This document shows, one piece after another, positions 26,334-50,835 of a stretch of DNA of 64,000 nt. The notes under the pieces were generated by a model. The model ran no database searches, was not told where the DNA came from, and saw only the letters and a program-made list of their open reading frames with translations. Every line of letters starts with the position of its first letter. Position 1 is the stretch's first letter. This stretch comes from Tieghemiomyces parasiticus (taxonomy: Eukaryota; Kickxellomycota; Dimargaritomycetes; Dimargaritales; Dimargaritaceae): positions 1 to 64,000 of the forward strand of contig JANBPT010000085.1 in the NCBI GenBank assembly GCA_027575765.1. Direction: 5' to 3'. Both the position numbers and the translations under genes were made by a program.

Positions 26334-29100
26334 GGCGCGACGGATGTTGTAGATGTGGGAGGTTGGTAGTAATGTGCGCGGCACTGGTGGAGCGCGAGAG
26401 AATCGGCTGCGTGAAGCAAGCGACGGTGGCGTTGAACGGCAGTAGGTTTAGAGTCCTGGTGAGGCCAGGATGAGGGCGGGGCTCGATTTTGGTATAGACA
26501 GTGCAAGCGAAGGAGAGATGACAGTGGTCGTGGTCTGCAAGAAGTAGGGAGGTGTTGAGGAGTGGCCACCGGCGGAAGGCGGTAGCGGGGACAGGACTGT
26601 TGTCGGTTGGTGGCAACCCCCCTAGTTTCACCACTGGCTTGGCGGAGACTTAATTGGGAAAGAAAGAAAAAAAAGAAGACCAAAAAAGAAGCGGAGCGGC
26701 CGCCACTGTGATGAGATGCGGGCGGACCCAGGCCCAGGTCCACACACTTGGCGTCGGACCAATCGGGGCAATAGGTGGGACGGGAACTGAACCCTCCCCC
26801 GTTGAACAGGTGGGGGGTTTGTAGGCTTCTCCAGCTACCCTGTTGAGTATTCGAGCTGGTAAGGGTGCCGGGTGACGGCCCCCTTCACTGCTGAGACGGG
26901 CAGTGGTGGGCGATGGCACAGGACGTTGATGATGATGAGCGGCAGGCGACAGCAGCCCTGGTGACACCCGCCAGTGGTGGCGGCCGTAGCGGTGCCACAG
27001 CGGCTGTCCACAACATGCCTGCCTCCTAATGACAGCAGACTGGGCACAGCCATCGCCCGTTAGCCGCTGCGGGATTCTCTGGCCGAAAAACGATCAGCAG
27101 ACACGCCTGTTGCGTGGTATGAGGCTGCCGAGCATCTACACTCACTCCGACGGAGTTGGGGAATATTAATGATAAGGGCGAACGACTAGTACGGCCGCAT
27201 GATTACGCAGTCGTTTGTTTAGCTGTCCGATCGCTGGTAATATTTCGTCATCCCCAAACCAAAACACTTCTATACATGTGGGCTGGGGTGTGGAGGTCGA
27301 TGTAGGTGGTGATTGTGCAGATACCAATGATATTGCGAATGAGTCTATCAAACGAGGCGGACGGGCTGACCGGCCGCATCGGGACTAGCAACGGGGTGGC
27401 TATGCAGCCATGATTATTTTTTTGACTGGTAGAGAATATGTGCACCGCCGCAAGTCTGCCATACACTTTTAAATGGAGGTAAAAGACGGTGACCAATCAA
27501 CACGGCGGAAGTCGAATTAGTCAGTCATGCCAATGTGGATTCAACAGCCGATGGCATACTTTTAAGGCCGGTGAGACTGATTCGAGTCGGAATGGACAAA
27601 GACCAAACCCCTAAACCCCTTGAAATTCCAATGTACCCTGCTGCGACGTACCCTCTTTCCACCACTCCTACAGACTGCTGATTGATTCAGGTGCAACTCT
27701 GTAGATTAGTCTTTAATACTACCGATCGACAGCACGGGAGGACGGGTGAAGGGAAAGGGAGGCGGTGCCGAGCAGGAGGCTCGAATGCGTAAGGCCTGAG
27801 AGGGCGACAACGCCCACCCCCTTGAGGTCCCTTACAAGTTTGGCCCATGGCCTGTGAATGTTAACATCGTGGCCGAGAAGCGGACCACAGACCTCCTGGG
27901 GAGCGACTAGCAGGGCATAGGCGGGGGGGCGCAGGAGGGAGGGCAATGCTTCTTAGTAATCTTCGCTCCGCCCGAATAACACCGGCACCCCTACCTAGTG
28001 GCTTTGATTCGCCAACTTTCCGACAGGTGAAACGGCAGGAGAGCAGCATCACTAGCCGAGACAATCTAATAAATATACACGTCCATTATGTAGCTCCAAT
28101 AAAAGCTATGTCTCATCACAGCCAACCTTTCGAGAACGTCGACGCCAATATTACCCCGCATCCGACTACAATGCCCCAGGTGTGGCCCACGCCCCGCTAG
28201 CTCCGCTCCTGGGCTCACCGTCGATAGCTACTAACACACAACCAAGGTGCAGCACACAACCCACACGAGTGCGGGTGTGGGGATGGCAAAGCATAAGGAT
28301 CTTCCGAAACTATAAGGCATCTTGGGGGGCCAGCCGAGCGTGCTGATCACCTCAACCGTATAATACCCAACTTATGCGGCCGAAAAGGGTTGCTCACAAA
28401 CAGTCTGCACCCTCTGCCGTGTTCTATATTTGCCGTCCTACTGCCTTGTTGCGCAAAATATAGCCGGTAAGAATAGACACGCCCCGCCCTCCCCAGCTGG
28501 CCAACAGCTTTCACATCGACAACTCCGCCCCACACACACGCGCTCTTTATTGTACTCCGCCGCGGTTTGAACGTCGCTCCTACTTCTCCCAGCGCTTCAC
28601 TTTACCAGTAGTCCAAAGCTCCTCTTCCCCGGACCCCGTCGGCTGGTCGGAGCCACTGCACTCTTGACATCCCGGCCCAGCACAGCACAGGGCCTCCTCC
28701 ATCTCCATTCCTGCGGCTTACTTCCATCCCATCTGGTCCCGCCACCCCCCCTCTCGCATCCGATTGCCCCCCCCCCACATCTTCCTGCTCTCTAGGTCGC
28801 CTTTACCACAACCCATCTCCACCCTGCCTGGCTACCCCCGCCTCACGAGCGCCGATACGGCAGCCCCACCCTTCCTTCTTTAACGTCTTTGCTGTACCCA
28901 CTTATAAACCCTCCCATCCTCGTGCCGCGCGCACCAACTCCCGTCGGCTAGGGCAGGTCCCCCACATTCTAGCTGCCACGCCTGCCACCATCCCCCACTT
29001 TTTGCCACCAACGCTTTCCCTGCTCATCTAGCCTTTCCTGCCTATACCACAACCCGCCGGTGCGTTTTCCCGGCGCCCGTGTGCCCTCAGCCCCTCCCCT
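26334..29100. other. Divergent promoter region, rhomboid and Sec7 gene
   Basis: 2.8 kb without a recognisable gene. The last 724 nt (28377-29100) contain no ATG on the plus strand and are C/T-rich, as expected of a long leader for the Sec7 gene. A TATAAA lies at 28903-28908. Confidence 0.5.
28903..28908 (+). promoter_or_regulatory. Possible TATA box of the Sec7 gene
   Basis: TATAAA 193 nt before the ATG at 29101, within the ATG-free stretch. Confidence 0.35.
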
Positions 29101-36919: not shown

Positions 36920-38511
36920 GCTGGTCAGGGATTTAATGGGAATGGGAGTTGAGTTAATTGATAGACGGAGGCAAATGGAATCGGGTCAGGTGGATGAGTT
37001 AAAAAATATGTAGGGGTAAAAAGCACTAGCAAATCCTAAAGCAAGTGAGCAGACGTGATATTGGTAGTAACAACGATAGTAGGCTGCCAATAGAAGTAAA
37101 AAAAAATAAATGAGCCAGAGGCATAGCTGGCAGGCAGCAATCAACAGTACCATCGCTTTAGGACTCGCGGAACTCGGTCAGAACGACTTGCGAAGGCAGC
37201 AGGTCAAAGTGAACGAACGAATGAGAGAAAAAAAAAAAAGAGGTCATAACTGACTTTACATCGATGTCGGCTAACCCTTAGGCAAAGAGGGATATATATT
37301 AATCACGTGACGATAGTTGTGGTAGGAGATGATTCAGAGTTGGAATATGAATAATTAAGCATTTAGTAGATTATGGTCATTCATTAGTAACGACTGTTGG
37401 CACATTAATATATACATATATAGCGAAAGGGCCTGTAGCTTGGGGACTTGTCGGTATACCACTAGTGTAGAGGAGTGGTTAAGAAATAATAGAGGTGCTT
37501 GAAGAAGTATAAAAGGTGTCGTTCATAAGGAGGCGTGGGCTAGATGGCTGCGAAAAGGCACGGCAGGAAGAGGTTGTATTTTAAATAGCGGCTGCAGAAG
37601 AGGCCAAATGTACCATGGTGATGAGGGGTGGGTGGCAAACTAGGGGGATGGCGCACGCCAGTCTGTACGGGCTAGATGCGGGAGGATAGGGAGTGGAACC
37701 GGATATCGTTCTTGCCGGTGTACATATCGTGGTGTTGGGTCATTCTAGGCGGCCGCAACAATCTACTAACGGATGTTCCCTGGCGGGGATCGCGTTGCTT
37801 GGTAAGAAAAGTTGGGGCCCGTTGGCATCCCTTCGATTAGCTACTGCAGGCCCATAACACCAAACGAGTGACCCTTTCCTTGCCGGTTCAGTGCAGTGAA
37901 TGGCCTCCGAGCCGTACCACTCGGGGCCTTACTGTAGGCAATCCCAACCACTTAGCATCGTATCCAGTTGCGTATGATCACTCCCTGGCACATTCAAAGT
38001 CCTGCACTTCAGTCCTGGCGGCAGTACTAAAAGCTGTTAAAGCGAATTCTGCGTCTTTGAGCGGACAGACCCCGGTTGCGGTTAGTGCCGCTGATGCTTT
38101 AATTATGTCGCATATAATGGAAAAATCAGTAGCTCTCGGCTTGGTAAAGGTATGACACGTCGGCGTAGCTAGGTTTCGGTATCACAGCAAGTTACGGTTT
38201 CGCTGCGACTGCCCTTGGCTGCTCAGGGTTCGGGGGGGGGACCAGCCCAAACCCGTCCAGTGCCCCAGAGTGCAGCATCTGACGTTCAACCTTTCTGACT
38301 CAGAATTGCCACCATCTGCATTGGTCCGTCGCTGGACCCATCTCCTTCTAGTCCCCCTCCTCTGAATTGCAGCCTTCGTTGTCTGTGTCCTCCGAACGGT
38401 CCACGCCGCCCGAACTGCCCTGCCACTGGCACGCATCCCCCCACGTTGCAGCCCCTTGTGTTCGCCTCCTTGTTTCCACACCCTTAGTCCCCACGCATAG
38501 ACTTCTACGCC
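36920..38511. other. Divergent promoter region, HAS1 and SVP26
   Basis: 1.6 kb. AT-rich with short A runs near HAS1. The last 357 nt before SVP26 (38155-38511) have no plus-strand ATG and contain a G9 run at 38230-38239. No gene seen; a 95-codon frame at 37868-38155 has no ATG start and no family features. Confidence 0.45.
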
Positions 38512-39440
38512 ATGGCCGGATTCATGGCACTATTGAGCATTCTCGGGGCTCTCGTTGCCCTCGGTTTCGCCGTGTTCTGCCTGGTATGCGGCCTGTACCA
38601 CATCTCGGAGCTCGTGGAGGAGAAGACAGCGGCGGTCCGCCACGCTATTCTTTACAGCACCTGGCTGGTGGTGGCCCTCCATCCGCTACTATGGCTTGCC
38701 GACGGCTTGCCCTGGCCTCGGCTACTGTTTTCGCTGTTCTGTCAAGTTGTCTACAGTCTACACCTGGGCACGTTCCCCTACACCAACACTGAGGGCTTCA
38801 CCTTCATTGCCACTTGCGGTAGGTGATAACATGCCAACAGCGTGGTTGGCCGACCGTAGCCGGATATATCCTCCCTCGTAAACCATATCCGCCATACCAA
38901 CGGCCAGGGCAGTGGGCCCGTCATAGTTGATCTACAGGTTGTAACCCTCTTTCTGCCTCCGCACTCTGCCCCATCCTTTCACGGTACCTACACCTAGTCC
39001 TTGTCATCTGTAACCACTTTCTCTGGTTCCTTTATTTCATCGACCACCATTTCGCCACGACCGAGGCGGTGTCCTTCTTAGTGATGTGTGTCTGGCTGGT
39101 ACCGCTCATGTATCTAGTCTCCCTCACGTCTAGTGAGAACCAGCTGCCGGATATGGGTAAGCGACCATTTACCCGGTTAAGGGACTATTACTACTGGGGC
39201 TGATCGGAGAGAAAAGGCCAAACTGGCCTGCGTTCTTCGGCAGGCAAATACTAAAATTTACCCCTCACCCTCCTCTACCTTCCCCGGTATACTGCCCCAC
39301 ATCCGCGTCCTGCCCTATCTACAGCCCATAACCCTCATATGAGGAACGCTCAAAAGACACCCGGGATCCTAAAGTCCTTCTTTGGTACAATCCTGGGCAA
39401 GTCGGAAACACCCTTGCCAGCCAAGAAGCGGACATTCTAG
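38512..39440 (+). CDS. SVP26: Svp26/TEX261 family ER-Golgi membrane cargo adaptor
   Basis: Exons 38512-38818, 38998-39156 and 39325-39440 join in phase, giving 193 residues. Svp26 sorts Golgi mannosyltransferases into COPII vesicles; TEX261 is the animal counterpart. Family marks: the N-terminal CGLYHISELVEE (TEX261-like AGLYYLAELIEE), four membrane segments, a TFPYTNTEGFTFIATC block at the exon 1 end, CNHFLWFLYFIDHHF in exon 2, the ENQLPDMG loop, and a short Lys-rich cytosolic tail ending PLPAKKRTF. Donors are GTAGGT and GTAAGC. The 3' ending corresponds to the usual full length of the family. The fungal symbol is assigned by family membership. Confidence 0.9.
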
Positions 39441-45400: not shown

Positions 45401-47479
45401 ATGGAAGCAAAAGCTAAGGCTATCGTCCCCTCTTTCTCTCCTCCACTCCCGCCGCCCCCTTTTTGCCCGCGTGGCGACCATCACCCCGCTACTCCCCTCG
45501 TTACTCCACCCCACCCCCCTAAAACTGGGATAGAGTAAAGGGCGAGGGGTGGGAGCACTGTCTTTAACCTACCCCTATTGTTTTTCTCAACTCGACCCGA
45601 TGTTATGATAGTTCTTTGGCTTGAGGACCTGGGCTGGGCAATTGTGTGGGCGTTATTCTTTATTGGGCCCCTGTATCCCCCAATTTTATCCTTAACGAAC
45701 AGTAAATATGGCACGGAATGCCTTAGGGTCGGCTGGGTTTCTAAAAGGAGGGAACCAGAAGGTCAAGCCCGTGCAAAGGCCCTCTCTACGAATAGCCCGA
45801 ATTAGGGAATATTGTAAAAATGACATTAATTTGTTACGCAGCCAAAGCCAGACGCGGATATGGGGCTCAGGAGAATAGATGAGCAATCCCGCTTGGCCAT
45901 TGCACCTGTATAGCCCGCTACTATCGCTTCATGATGATAACCTTGTGAAGCTAGAAGGTACAAGTCGAGGAGGATGTGTTCTAGCGCCCCCCTCTCTTAG
46001 AGTAACCGCGAATGATTCAAGTTTCGTAAATCAACCTATATTGGGCGAGGAAGGCGGACAACAGCCACCGCCATAAATGTTCCGTTTTTTTTTCCTCCCC
46101 AGCGTCTCAACAGCCTTATTGAGTGGATTTTCATTACACATATTTTTTCCGCGGGTCGTCCCCAGTCGACGAAGGCTGACTGGTGAGTTGCATTAAAAAT
46201 TGCTAGACCAGTATCTCTGACCGGTTGCTATAAGGTAAATATACCCAATGGAGTCCCATAATGGCGCCATAAAAAATATACATGCACCGAGAATGTAGTC
46301 CCTGGCAGGCCACGCATGTCGAAGTTCTAAGTAATCAGGAATAGAGCTAAGGACTAGACTGATACGCCTCGGTAGGAAACGGCGAGGGAAGCTGTAGCGG
46401 CTGGCTCATCCAGTATCGAATCAATTAACTAGCACGATAGAAAGAGTAACGATGTTATCAGGGTAACGTTAACCGAATCCTAGGTCTAGCGCAGAGGGGT
46501 AAGTGTCCTCATCGTTAGATTGCGAACAACATGGAGTTTGTCACTCCTTACTTCGCCCCTAGCGACCAGGGCGGCATGACATGGGCGGCATCGGGGGACA
46601 CGAAAGCAAGTGCGATCGGTAGGCCACGGTGCCCGCGTAGGCGAAGCGAGGGGTCACTGATTAACGAAGTTAGTTTTAGTGAGTGGTGCTGACCTTATGG
46701 TCCGTACGAGCACCTCGTAGGTTGTGGGAGGGCAGCCGGGTGGTACCCCATGTCGGTTTACATAGATTATTATTAACAGCCACGGGTGGTACGACGCCCG
46801 ATTAGCCTCGAGTGCCAACCAGCTTACCAGTAGCAAAGCGGCATAAGTAAACGCTCCAATTCGTACTGCGGACCATGACACCCTACAGCCGGTTCGACAG
46901 TCCTCATCAGTTATACCTAATAATCGGCTGTAAAGTCGTCTAAACCTTAAACCAAACGTTTGCACCAAAGTGGTCAGGCGCCGAGAATGTCAGTACCAGG
47001 TAAATCAATCCGAATGGGCTCAAGGTGTGGCTTCTAACCACGTATTTTTGACTAGTCCCGACAGGGACCGGGGAGAAAGTGGAGAGGCGGGGAAGCCCAG
47101 CCTCGGTTAACAATCTCGTGAGGCTGAATCGAGGACCAAGTCCCCTCCCCCACTTTTTTTTCTAGAGGGGTAAGGCTACTAGGATTGGGAGAGGGGGCCC
47201 TTGACTTGGGGAGGGTGGCATACTATACCGACAAAAAAGTGAAGCGTGCGTGCACGCGCACCTGGGAGAGGGGTGGTGTGATTGAGAAGGGTGGTGAGTC
47301 AATCGGTGGTGGGGAAGTCGCCACAGCATACCCATGAACACACGTATTATGACTAAAACAAGGGCTTGCGGAAGAAGGAGGGGACAAAGAAGACAAAGAG
47401 TATTCGCCCCCCCCACCAATCCCTCCTTTTTCCTTGTCTTCTAATCGTTCCTTTACCACCCTGTTTTGACCTCCTCTGC
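39441..47479. other. Gene desert upstream of the WOPR gene
   Basis: About 8 kb in which no frame shows family features, spliced-exon structure or codon bias. The longest frames (44147-44638 minus, 43625-44002 plus) are within what chance gives. Purine- or pyrimidine-rich tracts occur near 45420-45530 and 47050-47440. TTAAAG cores, some followed by TA (minus strand near 40257-40265, plus strand 40853-40860), are scattered. I read it as regulatory or non-coding DNA belonging to the WOPR gene. Confidence 0.5.
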
Positions 47480-47487
47480 TATATATA
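47480..47487 (+). promoter_or_regulatory. TATA box of the WOPR gene (predicted)
   Basis: TATATATA sits where the sequence changes from normal ATG frequency to ATG-depleted, and about 2.06 kb before the start codon. Transcription would begin near 47515. Confidence 0.4.
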
Positions 47488-47514
47488 CTGGTAGCACCGG
47501 CCCTGTCGGCACGC

Positions 47515-49548
47515 ACGTATTAAGCATTCGTGTCTCGACATTTTTCAGGTTGGACCTGCGCAGCCCCACAAACCTCAGCCCGTTCCCATCATCTTCCTGT
47601 GCACCTGGGGCTATTTCCATCCGTTGTTCGACGACCAATTGTATTTACTTCGCTCTCATATATTCACCAACCTAGCGCAATTCCTCACTCCACTTAAATA
47701 ACATAACTCGGCTCCTCCATCACACCGGTTTCACAACCTGATCCCATCCACAGCTGCCTTACTCCACAAAAAGCCATTATCCACTTCCGATTGGTGCACA
47801 CTCTGGACTTCATTCCCCACTACCCCTTCTGTCGGTATAGCCGCAAACGCATCACAAGCTAACCGTTGGTTGGCCTGAATTACCTATTAGAAACTGCCCG
47901 CGAGTAACCTACCGTAGTCAGTTCACGACTATATATCCCCGTACCTCGCTTAATGCCCGGACGCCCACGGCTTCCGCCCACCATTCGCTTGCTGCACTGC
48001 TTATAACCCATACAACGCTATTTGGATCAGCTTACTCTCAATTTCTTTCTTTCTTGGTACCCGCTACCTACCTGTCGGCAAGATCTACCGAGCTATCCGT
48101 GCGAGACGGCGCAATTCACCCTGCAACCGCAGCACCAGCTTTTGGCTGGACGTCTGTGCCCATTCGCCCCCATTTATCTCGGGCGACATTGTCACTTTTA
48201 TCTTGTGTTTCTTTGTGCAGCCATAGTTACCCAGCCCACATCTCCACGTCGCAATCCGCTCCTCTCCCAGTCTCTTTCCATATCCACTTGCTATACAGCA
48301 ACTTCTAATAACTCAACCACGCATCCCTAAGGCTTCAACCCGAGCCTCTGCCATACATCAGCGAGGGAATCCCTTCACCTGCCTCAACAGAACTCGTCGA
48401 TAGGGTGCAAGTCGCTATCCTCCCCCCAAGGGTGACCGTATCGCCACGTGTACCAACCAAGTTTCTCCTCCTCACAGCCGACTGCGACCAATCGTCGTGC
48501 GCCTCCTCTTCATTACTATCTTTTTGTCCCCACGTTTACTGTGACTGCTTTGTACCTTTCGACATCCCTCTGCTTCCTGGGTGTCCGTTCCTCCACTCAC
48601 TCACTCATCCGGCTCCGCCGCCTTTCTCACTCACCGAGGCCTGTGGTTGGCGAACTATCCACGTAGCCCTCTCAAGCACCACAGCCCGTATCATTTTGAC
48701 CAATCTGCTTTGCCAAGTCAGTTAAGATTACATCCCATTCCATTCGGATTTTTTTAGGTAAGTTTCCAATTTATCGCCGAGGATCCTTGCCGCTATCAGG
48801 GCGTCGGGAGGTAGTCTGGATGGCCCTAGAAAGACGTTCCAGCCGCCGTACATTATAACCGTCCTTCTTCCGCCGCGAAACAGTCGGAGCTCAGTCATCT
48901 CAACTTCTCGGCCAGCCCACTCACGAGCACTGGAGGTGGGCTGCTTCGTCCGGTTTAGGTCACTCCAGATGCCTGAACTGGGTAGAAGCTCCACCATAAA
49001 ATACTTCACATCCTCGCTAACCTTATTCCGGTTTCCTGGCGTATCCATTCCCTTAAATCCACCCTCTCTTTATCAGAAATTGGTACCGCGCAACCATTCC
49101 GTTGCTCCAAGTGCGCGTAGAAATTTCTATTGAGCGTCATCGATACGTGTATTTGAGCAATCGAATCCGGACGCAAAGTCTAATATTTACCTCGCACGAT
49201 ATCTCAGCTCTCCCTTTTGTAAAACAATCGTCTCGTCTATAGCCATCTTCCCAATTTTCCCATCCCCCAGGCCTTTGAAGGTGCTTGGACTCTTCCCGGA
49301 CTCTCCTCGTCCTCGCCTTGGATTATAGGTTATTCAGGCCACCCAGGTTATTCACCTGTTCGTTGCCCCTTTTTCCCTCTTGTGCACTACCCTTGCTTGT
49401 AGCTACCGCCTTTCTTGGCCGTGATACTGTCACCCTTGCAGCCCTTGACGGAGTAAGCTTGTCCAATAACGGTGTCCCCACACCAGTACAGCTGTTCTTT
49501 TCACCTGATTCTCAATCAGCTTACATCCTTTCCCTAATCTGGTTCATC
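47515..49548 (+). promoter_or_regulatory. Long ATG-depleted 5' leader of the WOPR gene
   Basis: Over about 2 kb of C/T-rich sequence only three plus-strand ATGs occur (47953, 48820, 48969), where 20-30 would be expected. The last two lie inside a likely leader intron: donor TTTAG|GTAAGT at 48757/48758, acceptors at 49076 (preceded by CTAAC and a pyrimidine tract) or 49270. The remaining ATG opens a 17-residue uORF. That pattern indicates a translated mRNA with selection against upstream starts. Confidence 0.55.
47953..48006 (+). promoter_or_regulatory. Single uORF in the WOPR leader
   Basis: ATG 47953 to TAA 48004-48006 encodes 17 residues (MPGRPRLPPTIRLLHCL). It is the only ATG left in the leader after removal of the predicted intron. 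Confidence 0.35.
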
Positions 49549-50835
49549 ATGCTGGAGTCCTACACAGGCTACATTGAGACCGGCCACGACGCTCTCCTAC
49601 TCTTCGAGGCCTGCCGGCGCGGTATTCTGCACCGCGTACAGCGACGTCTCGGGGAGAAGGAGCGCAACACCATCCGCTCCGGGTCTATTTTTGTCTGGGA
49701 CGAAGAGGAGTCCGGCATGAAGCGCTGGACTGACGGAAAGTCCTGGTCCGCCTCGCGTGTCCTGGGCTGCTTTCTGACCTACCAGGAGACCGAGGCTCGG
49801 CGCCGTAGCGGAGCCAAACCCAGTCCAAGTGCCACTTTACCGACACTTGGCGTTCACTCAGGTTCCGCTTCCCCATGCACCAGGACTAGTTCATCACCCC
49901 CCGTCGTAGACCTGACCAGCCCCAGTACCAGCAGTACCACCGCCAGCCATCTCGTCAAAGAGAGCGGACTTATCAAGAAGGCCCTTTCCCTAACCACTAC
50001 CGACAATCACAAGCTACACCTCATCTGCTACTACAGCAAGGCTGACATTCTCGCTCGTCGCCTCACTACTCCGACCTACGATCCGCGCCTCGCGGGCATT
50101 GCCATTCCCTACGGCTACTATCCGGAGATGGCCCCTGAGCTCGGTAATCCCACCGAGACAGTATTTTATTCCCCTGCTTACGCCCCCCGTGAGTCCCAAC
50201 TGCCGGTCTACCTAGTCAACCGAACCCCGTCCTATCCGCCACATTACGGCCACCTGCCCCTCCAGCATAGCGCTCACGTGCGCTTCGGTCCACCGGTTAG
50301 TGACGGTCCTCATATCGTCCCGTCGAGTAGCTTCTTGTTTACCTACCCCTCTCCCGATGCACCGAGTAGACCATCATACCCTGCCTATCGCGCTGTTCCC
50401 TCTTCGGTTCCCCAATCTGGTCAATCCACGAGTATTCCTTTGGACCTGAGCCCCCACCTACTACCCGTATATGAAACCCACCGGCCATCCAAAATGGCCG
50501 CCACTGACGCTGCGGTGGCCTATCGTGGCCGCCATCGCTCCTTTACCGTCCTCACCCCACACAGCGATGGCGCCGTTACCCTACCTGCGCTCTTCACCCC
50601 GCCGGAATCACATACTCCGAGAACACCCCAGCACCTTCCGCCGCTCATCTCGCCCAAACGGCTCTTTGACGTAGTGCTCGGAGAATCTTCCCAGCGCCCA
50701 AAAATGGAGCCTCTGCCCCCACCCTCGAGCCTTTTCGACGCCGCAGTTTCGTCCCCCTCGCCGGTACCTGTGCTTTCCGTTTACAGCGAGGATCGGCGCC
50801 AGCTCGACGCCTTGCGTAGCGTGCTTACCCTTTAG
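49549..50835 (+). CDS. Gti1/Pac2 (WOPR) family transcription factor
   Basis: 428 residues from ATG 49549, the first ATG after 577 ATG-free bases. The family's proteins begin with a few residues before the G-Y/H-I/V motif, exactly as here (MLESYTGYIETGHDALLL). WOPR regulators (Wor1, Ryp1, Pac2, Gti1) are fungus-specific DNA-binding proteins controlling cell-type switching, sporulation and morphogenesis. The first half-domain runs to about residue 85: LLFEACRRGIL, RRLGEKERNTIRSGSIFVWDEEESGMKRWTDGKSWSASRV, FLTYQE. A Ser/Thr linker follows, then the second half-domain at about 140-170 (LIKKALSLTTTDNHKLHLICYYSKAD). The C-terminal 250 residues are Pro/Ser/Tyr-rich, typical of activation regions. 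Sequence is closer to Pac2/Gti1 than to Wor1. It converges on the GATA gene. Confidence 0.93.
   Translation: MLESYTGYIETGHDALLLFEACRRGILHRVQRRLGEKERNTIRSGSIFVWDEEESGMKRWTDGKSWSASRVLGCFLTYQETEARRRSGAKPSPSATLPTLGVHSGSASPCTRTSSSPPVVDLTSPSTSSTTASHLVKESGLIKKALSLTTTDNHKLHLICYYSKADILARRLTTPTYDPRLAGIAIPYGYYPEMAPELGNPTETVFYSPAYAPRESQLPVYLVNRTPSYPPHYGHLPLQHSAHVRFGPPVSDGPHIVPSSSFLFTYPSPDAPSRPSYPAYRAVPSSVPQSGQSTSIPLDLSPHLLPVYETHRPSKMAATDAAVAYRGRHRSFTVLTPHSDGAVTLPALFTPPESHTPRTPQHLPPLISPKRLFDVVLGESSQRPKMEPLPPPSSLFDAAVSSPSPVPVLSVYSEDRRQLDALRSVLTL

Follow-up and report, generated by a model that had tools for sequence, protein, structure and literature searches.

The window is a stretch of 64 kb from contig C1198 of the assembly of Tieghemiomyces parasiticus (Dimargaritales), which comprises 46.5 Mb in 1363 contigs. 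At 49549-50835 it encodes a protein with a Gti1/Pac2 (WOPR) domain (PF09729, E 5.8e-46). Six WOPR matches were found in the genome. The locus itself is present in four copies: the window copy and three more, named here by their contigs C827, C389 and C444, two of which are about 30% diverged from the window copy. In the alignment, the identity was 92.5% between the window copy and C827 and 94% between C389 and C444, and the two pairs matched at about 70% across the leader and coding sequence. The four-copy alignment spans 2.27 kb upstream of the WOPR start. The features of the locus are listed in Table 1.

Table 1. Features of the WOPR locus in the window, with the evidence for each.
Feature	Position	Strand	Evidence
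Likely distal promoter TATA box, TATATATA	47480-47487	+	Aligned place common to 4/4 copies; onset of ATG depletion at the box or shortly 3' of it
Predicted leader exon 1	47550-48757; 5' end uncertain (about 47510-47570)	+	ATG depletion
Candidate reverse CCAAT box	47790-47794	-	Identical in 4/4 copies
17-codon uORF	47953-48006	+	T at -3; aligned ATG absent in C389 and C444; one codon shorter in C827
Two candidate CCAAT boxes	48488-48492, 48700-48704	+	Identical in 4/4 copies
Predicted leader intron, 319 nt	48758-49076	+	GTAAGT donor, CTAAC and YAG acceptor 54-60 nt on, in 4/4 copies
Candidate second, proximal promoter, CATAAAATA (TATAAAATA in C389 and C444)	48995-49003 (-554), inside intron	+	Alignment, by eye
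CTAAC branch-point motif	49017-49021	+	Identical in 4/4 copies
Predicted leader exon 2, no ATG	49077-49548	+	0 ATGs in 4/4 copies
Coding sequence, Pac2-type WOPR protein, 428 aa	49549-50835	+	PF09729, E 5.8e-46; tree placement

Some observations were made around the locus and its copies. The public protein of the C827 copy (L007) has 316 aa, yet its DNA has an open 428-aa frame; the annotation has probably removed a piece as a false intron. Many Ras-family matches, like the WOPR loci, occur as near-equal pairs on separate contigs, a pattern suggestive of a heterozygous diploid or a duplicated assembly. An Erv26-family gene of at least two exons lies at 38488-39200 on the plus strand. In the 8-10 kb from there to the WOPR leader, a scan of 4 further ORFs of the 31 listed recognised no gene, so genes may still lie in this stretch. 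At 46519-46694, upstream of the TATA box, translated comparison of the duplicated copies gave short matches on both strands (88-89% identity), possibly marking regulatory DNA.

We counted ATGs in the 2069 nt from the TATA box to the WOPR start (47480-49548). The plus strand contains three, at 47953, 48820 and 48969. Dinucleotide shuffles gave 20.0 +/- 3.6 and mononucleotide shuffles 21.3; none of 1000 shuffles of either kind came down to three, and the lowest count in either set was nine. The minus strand of the same stretch carries 41 ATGs (read as CAT), and the deficit is confined to the sense strand. As a control, the 2 kb upstream of the TATA box were found to hold 28 ATGs against 26.7 expected. 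An earlier note on this DNA had reported three ATGs where 20-30 were expected, and the counts bear this out: three does not fit composition-matched shuffles, and the 2 kb upstream show no deficit. The ATG-free runs of 864, 577 and about 600 nt, the last of which starts upstream of the TATA box, also match the lengths that it gave (600, 864 and 577 nt).

The deficit was specific to this triplet and to this place. Among 13 triplets compared in the exonic leader of the window copy, ATG alone was strongly depleted (1 seen, 18.0 expected), and the next lowest were AGT (13 against 17.7) and TGA (11 against 14.4). CTG (31 against 27.1), GTG (20 against 14.7), TTG (35 against 27.1) and ACG were at or above expectation. 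In the exonic leader of C389, ATG was seen 4 times against 17.1 expected, and the next lowest triplet was ACG (15 against 21.2). When segments of 2069 nt were taken every 50 nt on both strands of 264 kb, only 3 of the 8838 held three or fewer ATGs; these three overlap, and all lie at the WOPR leader.

Two of the three ATGs of the window copy fall within a predicted leader intron, as the earlier note had proposed, and the comparison of the four copies supports this. The predicted intron is 319, 321, 313 and 313 nt long in the four copies. Introns of Ras-family genes in the same genome have donors of the GTAAGT or GTGAGT type (13 exon gaps), and CTAAC was present in 12 of the 13 gaps, usually tens of nt upstream of the acceptor, as read by eye and unscored. 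Since the donor, CTAAC and acceptor are kept in all four copies and resemble those of the Ras-family introns, the leader intron is well supported by the sequence. The most likely acceptor is at 49076, 60 nt past the CTAAC that all copies share. The same note had left 49270 as a second choice; this acceptor, about 250 nt from CTAAC, was rejected because the distance of 49076 is nearer to that in other introns, as judged by eye.

The predicted intron serves as an internal control. It carries ATGs at the expected rate in the four copies (2 against 2.0, 3 against 2.4, 5 against 4.2 and 5 against 4.9). Exon 1 has 1 ATG against 12.7 expected in the window copy, counted from the TATA box to the donor, and 4, 4 and 5 against 11.0-12.5 in the other three, counted from 2069 nt before the start. 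In exon 2, no ATG was observed across the last 470-485 nt of any copy, where 4.1-5.4 per copy were expected. The difference between exonic and intronic counts had a binomial p of 0.03 in the window copy alone (1/17.9 against 2/2.0), 0.0007 in the window copy and C389 together (5/35.1 against 7/6.3), and 0.007 in C827 and C444 together (9/31.6 against 8/7.3). Conservation alone cannot separate intron from exon, because between the window copy and C389 the intron (66% identity) is about as conserved as most of the exonic leader (60-63%); the first 170 nt are 48% identical.

The 5' end of the leader could be placed only roughly. The TATA box is exactly TATATATA in three of the four copies and TATATAAA in C444. 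In the first 170 nt or so 3' of it, C827, C389 and C444 together have 5 ATGs against 6.5 expected, with no clear depletion; the 5' end of the depleted leader is therefore probably closer to -1980 than to -2069. C827 has two ATGs near the TATA box, at -2025 and -1997, both with A at -3, so that either transcription starts downstream of them or they are tolerated. For these reasons the transcript start is placed roughly, near -2040 to -1980, and the predicted 5' end of exon 1, which is uncertain, at about 47510-47570. The TATA box, the GTAAGT at 48758 and the uORF lie where the earlier note put them. Its view that the whole stretch is probably mRNA can be kept for most of the stretch, which is probably leader; the first part 3' of the TATA box is doubtful, being not clearly depleted in the other three copies.

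We next consider whether the deficit has lasted since the locus was duplicated. The window copy and C389 differ by about 39% in exonic sequence, and 679 substitutions over 1721 gap-free exonic columns were placed at random on the leader of the window copy. This neutral simulation predicted 14.6 +/- 3.5 exonic ATGs in C389, where 3 were seen (one further C389 ATG, within an insertion absent from the window copy, is outside the simulation), and 0 of 2000 runs were as low. In the intron, as a control, 5 were seen and 2.75 expected. Purging has thus continued since duplication, as expected of a leader kept for scanning. Between near-identical copies the signal was mixed: 4 seen against 5.5 expected from the window copy to C827 (P 0.34), 5 against 6.7 from C389 to C444 (P 0.28), and, in the reverse directions, 0/2000 and P 0.05.

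To see how common such leaders are, 46 ORFs of at least 250 aa were surveyed, drawn from the window, the WOPR loci and a further 200 kb on other contigs. The set includes the six WOPR copies and single-ORF gene models with predicted starts. Over the 46 ORFs, ATG density was lowest in the last 300 nt or so only (0.33, 0.35 and 0.72 per 100 nt in the three final bins of 100 nt, against 1.1-1.8 at greater distance). Ranked by depletion, the WOPR gene of the window came first of 43 at 2 kb and third of 46 at 1 kb; at 1.5 kb it also came first, by a very narrow margin, with the L025 and L018 genes close behind. Six or fewer ATGs in 2069 nt were found at three places in 264 kb: the WOPR leader, L018 and L025; the estimate of prevalence rests on these 264 kb and the 46 ORFs. 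The L025 gene (L025:2983, contig C910) encodes a bZIP factor. Its upstream region resembles the WOPR leader in being nearly free of ATGs, with a single one in the last 1.4 kb (L025:1566-2982), which has C at -3; it is shorter than the WOPR leader and was considered from one copy. At L018:5504-6976 (contig C420), one ATG was found in the last 1.47 kb upstream of a minus-strand gene with an 856-aa ORF, which had no Pfam match.

Depletion was weaker at the Sge1-named pair C638/C427, with 1 and 2 ATGs against 4.2 and 4.5 expected in the last 500 nt, and 6 and 8 against 15.6 and 15.5 in the last 1.5 kb. A long leader as a trait of all WOPR genes in this genome was rejected on this ground, and for C638/C427 themselves this weaker depletion neither shows nor excludes one. 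The pair is called Wor1/Sge1-type here by its source name and its position outside the Pac2 side of the tree; a second tree places the group nearer to the Pac2 side than to Wor1. Since L018, L025 and, more weakly, the Sge1-named pair are depleted, long purged leaders probably occur elsewhere in the genome. On the minus strand of L010, between about 277 and 87 nt ahead of the annotated start of an Sge1-named gene, a GTAGGT donor, CTAAC and a CAG soon after were seen, which may frame a small leader intron holding the nearest upstream ATG. ATG-free runs of about 700 nt also lie directly upstream of a Sec7-domain gene (28377-29100, plus strand) and of a rhomboid gene (26334-27013, minus strand).

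Depletion of ATG, its strand and codon specificity, the intron control and persistence after duplication are supported by these results. As our main reading, with a probability of about 0.82, we propose that the WOPR gene has a leader of about 1.65-1.75 kb that is spliced and scanned and is under selection against ATGs. In this model, 47480-49548 would mainly be the 5' untranslated leader of a Pac2-type WOPR mRNA, and transcription would begin shortly 3' of the TATA box. Splicing out of the predicted intron would leave the leader at the length given, and ribosomal subunits would scan it from the cap end to end. New exonic ATGs would therefore be selected against and intronic ones tolerated. 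The few exonic ATGs left downstream of about -1980 stand in poor contexts and would mostly be skipped. The earlier note had likewise ascribed the purging to scanning-dependent selection, and both the intron control and the four-copy comparison favor it; depletion was found to be specific to the sense strand and to exonic sequence.

It is possible, although we hold it to be rather unlikely, that the gene has several promoters. The distal TATA box would then give the long spliced leader and a conserved cluster of CCAAT boxes and TATAAAATA (48488-49003) a leader of about 0.5 kb, so that promoter choice would set translation. This is compatible with the scanned leader. In its favor, the leader does contain a TATAAAATA-like site and two CCAAT boxes that all four copies share unchanged, no ATG lies downstream of the acceptor, and alternative leader lengths are described at developmental regulators of Histoplasma (PMC4503680). 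These motifs are candidates chosen by eye, however, and the conserved CCAAT boxes are 3 of the 9 CCAAT/ATTGG matches at 47400-49600 in the window copy. C389 and C444 also have an ATG at -509, which would fall within the short leader if that were unspliced. Several promoters alone would leave the purge from -1596 to -792 unexplained (1-2 ATGs seen against 5.6-8.7 expected per copy), so a long transcript is still needed. Autoregulation through the Wor1 motif TTAAAGTTT was rejected: with at most one mismatch, 9 sites occur in the window against 7.6 expected, and 0 in 47480-49548.

The 17-codon uORF could in principle control translation, as the earlier note had held, and it does begin at the only exonic ATG of the window copy (47953). 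C389 and C444 carry another uORF, of 9 codons, which starts 14 alignment columns farther 3'. We consider a regulatory role improbable. The start is not conserved, being missing in C389 and C444, which have further exonic ATGs and uORFs; the peptides differ, and C827 lacks one codon of the window copy's length. Even after splicing, about 1.2 kb would separate the end of the uORF from the main start. Its ATG has T at -3; of the 32 ORFs in the survey with at least 350 aa, 30 have A or G there and 0 have T. Downstream of -1980, the exonic ATGs of the four copies amount to 10 occurrences at 6 sites aligned to the window copy, all with C or T at -3, which is suggestive of poor context, given only six sites on a C+T-rich strand. 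Judged by start context, leaky skipping is more likely than regulation by the uORF, and the uORF is probably incidental, with a leaky start. A conserved start in a usable context, as a regulatory uORF should have, was not found.

It is very unlikely that, instead of the leader of this gene, the stretch is a separate transcript or codes for a protein without an ATG. Short open frames do give weak matches between the duplicated copies, but these are spread over several frames and both strands, as nucleotide similarity would produce. Read back from its ATG, the WOPR frame stays open for 90 codons in the window copy and for 73 each in C389 and C444; no ATG occurs in this extension, and in C827 it closes after 11 codons. 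The depletion on the sense strand extends to the WOPR start, and the window has no Rfam family at the gathering threshold and no tRNA. No convincing coding potential was detected in the leader. Finally, chance or the composition of a pyrimidine-rich strand (61.7% C+T in the sense strand) is refuted as far as shuffles and comparison reach, since dinucleotide shuffles were never that low, triplets of the same letters lacked strong depletion, the intron kept a normal ATG rate and the deficit persists in diverged copies.

The scanned leader offers several candidate uses for its length: room for regulatory DNA in the transcribed region, where the copies share CCAAT and TATAAAATA-like sites, alternative starts, or lowered translation efficiency. 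Any regulatory purpose of the length would be putative, and so would the translational control that the earlier note read from the leader. Stable RNA structure was rejected as an explanation in both parts tried, since over 47950-48757 the predicted folding did not exceed that of 20 shuffles (z 0.15), and over 49077-49548 it did so only slightly (z -1.75, 5 of 100 shuffles as good). A more speculative idea, to which we give little weight, is that long AUG-purged spliced leaders are an old, selected trait of WOPR-family and other developmental regulators (in a Zoopagomycota lineage as well as Candida), with length itself as the device, independent of uORFs. Among the papers listed on Tieghemiomyces and on WOPR/Pac2 leaders, by title and beginning of abstract, we found no earlier description of this leader. 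Here DNA by itself sufficed to predict a leader longer than 1.5 kb in an early-diverging fungus, the intron acting as a built-in control and the gene copies as replicates made by evolution. A Pac2-type gene can thereby be counted among the developmental regulators of fungi that have very long leaders, and in it leader length can be studied separately from uORFs.

The WOPR family has two clades, GTI1/WOR1/RYP1/SGE1 and PAC2, according to PMC3364952. We examined the place of the window protein in two trees of the WOPR block. In the second, it grouped with Pac2-type proteins at 98/97 support and C. albicans Wor1 fell outside; the identity of the ascomycete Pac2 proteins is per source names. This tree has 33 rows (31 hand-picked proteins and 2 PDB pieces) and 82 columns kept; it omits the Endogone and Sorochytrium rows and one of the two Smittium rows, and its Wor1 and YHR177W (PDB) rows are long branches. 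In the first, which lacked Wor1, the Pac2-type grouping had 92/90 (36 proteins hand-picked from 180, with 2 dropped as their anchor motif was not found). The protein thus has the PF09729 domain and groups with ascomycete Pac2-type proteins, outside the Wor1/Ryp1/Sge1 clade. By this placement the gene is Pac2-type, not Wor1-type, and its link to WOR1 is by family, not orthology; the earlier note had likened the gene to WOR1, and the trees do not support equating the two. The term "switch regulator" may still fit loosely, since Pac2 also regulates form: in Histoplasma it is required for cAMP-induced filamentation, as PMC12505909 reports.

The 5' UTR of WOR1 in Candida albicans is reportedly long. 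For that 5' UTR a lowered translation efficiency has been reported (Guan and Liu 2015). The likeness is a long leader on the gene of a WOPR-family regulator; the gene here differs in being Pac2-type, and its leader is read from sequence. Longer-leader transcripts of RYP2, RYP3 and WET1 in Histoplasma, as described in PMC4503680, also place long leaders on regulators of cell form, and control both by uORFs and by other means is proposed there. Those alternative leaders were measured by RNA-seq and ribosome profiling (PMC4503680), whereas the T. parasiticus leader, almost free of ATGs, is predicted from DNA. In Cryptococcus and Neurospora, start context decides the use of upstream AUGs in long leaders (PMC7049704), a role that start context would also have in the leader proposed here. 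Their long leaders are AUG-rich according to the same source, whereas that of T. parasiticus is long but AUG-poor.
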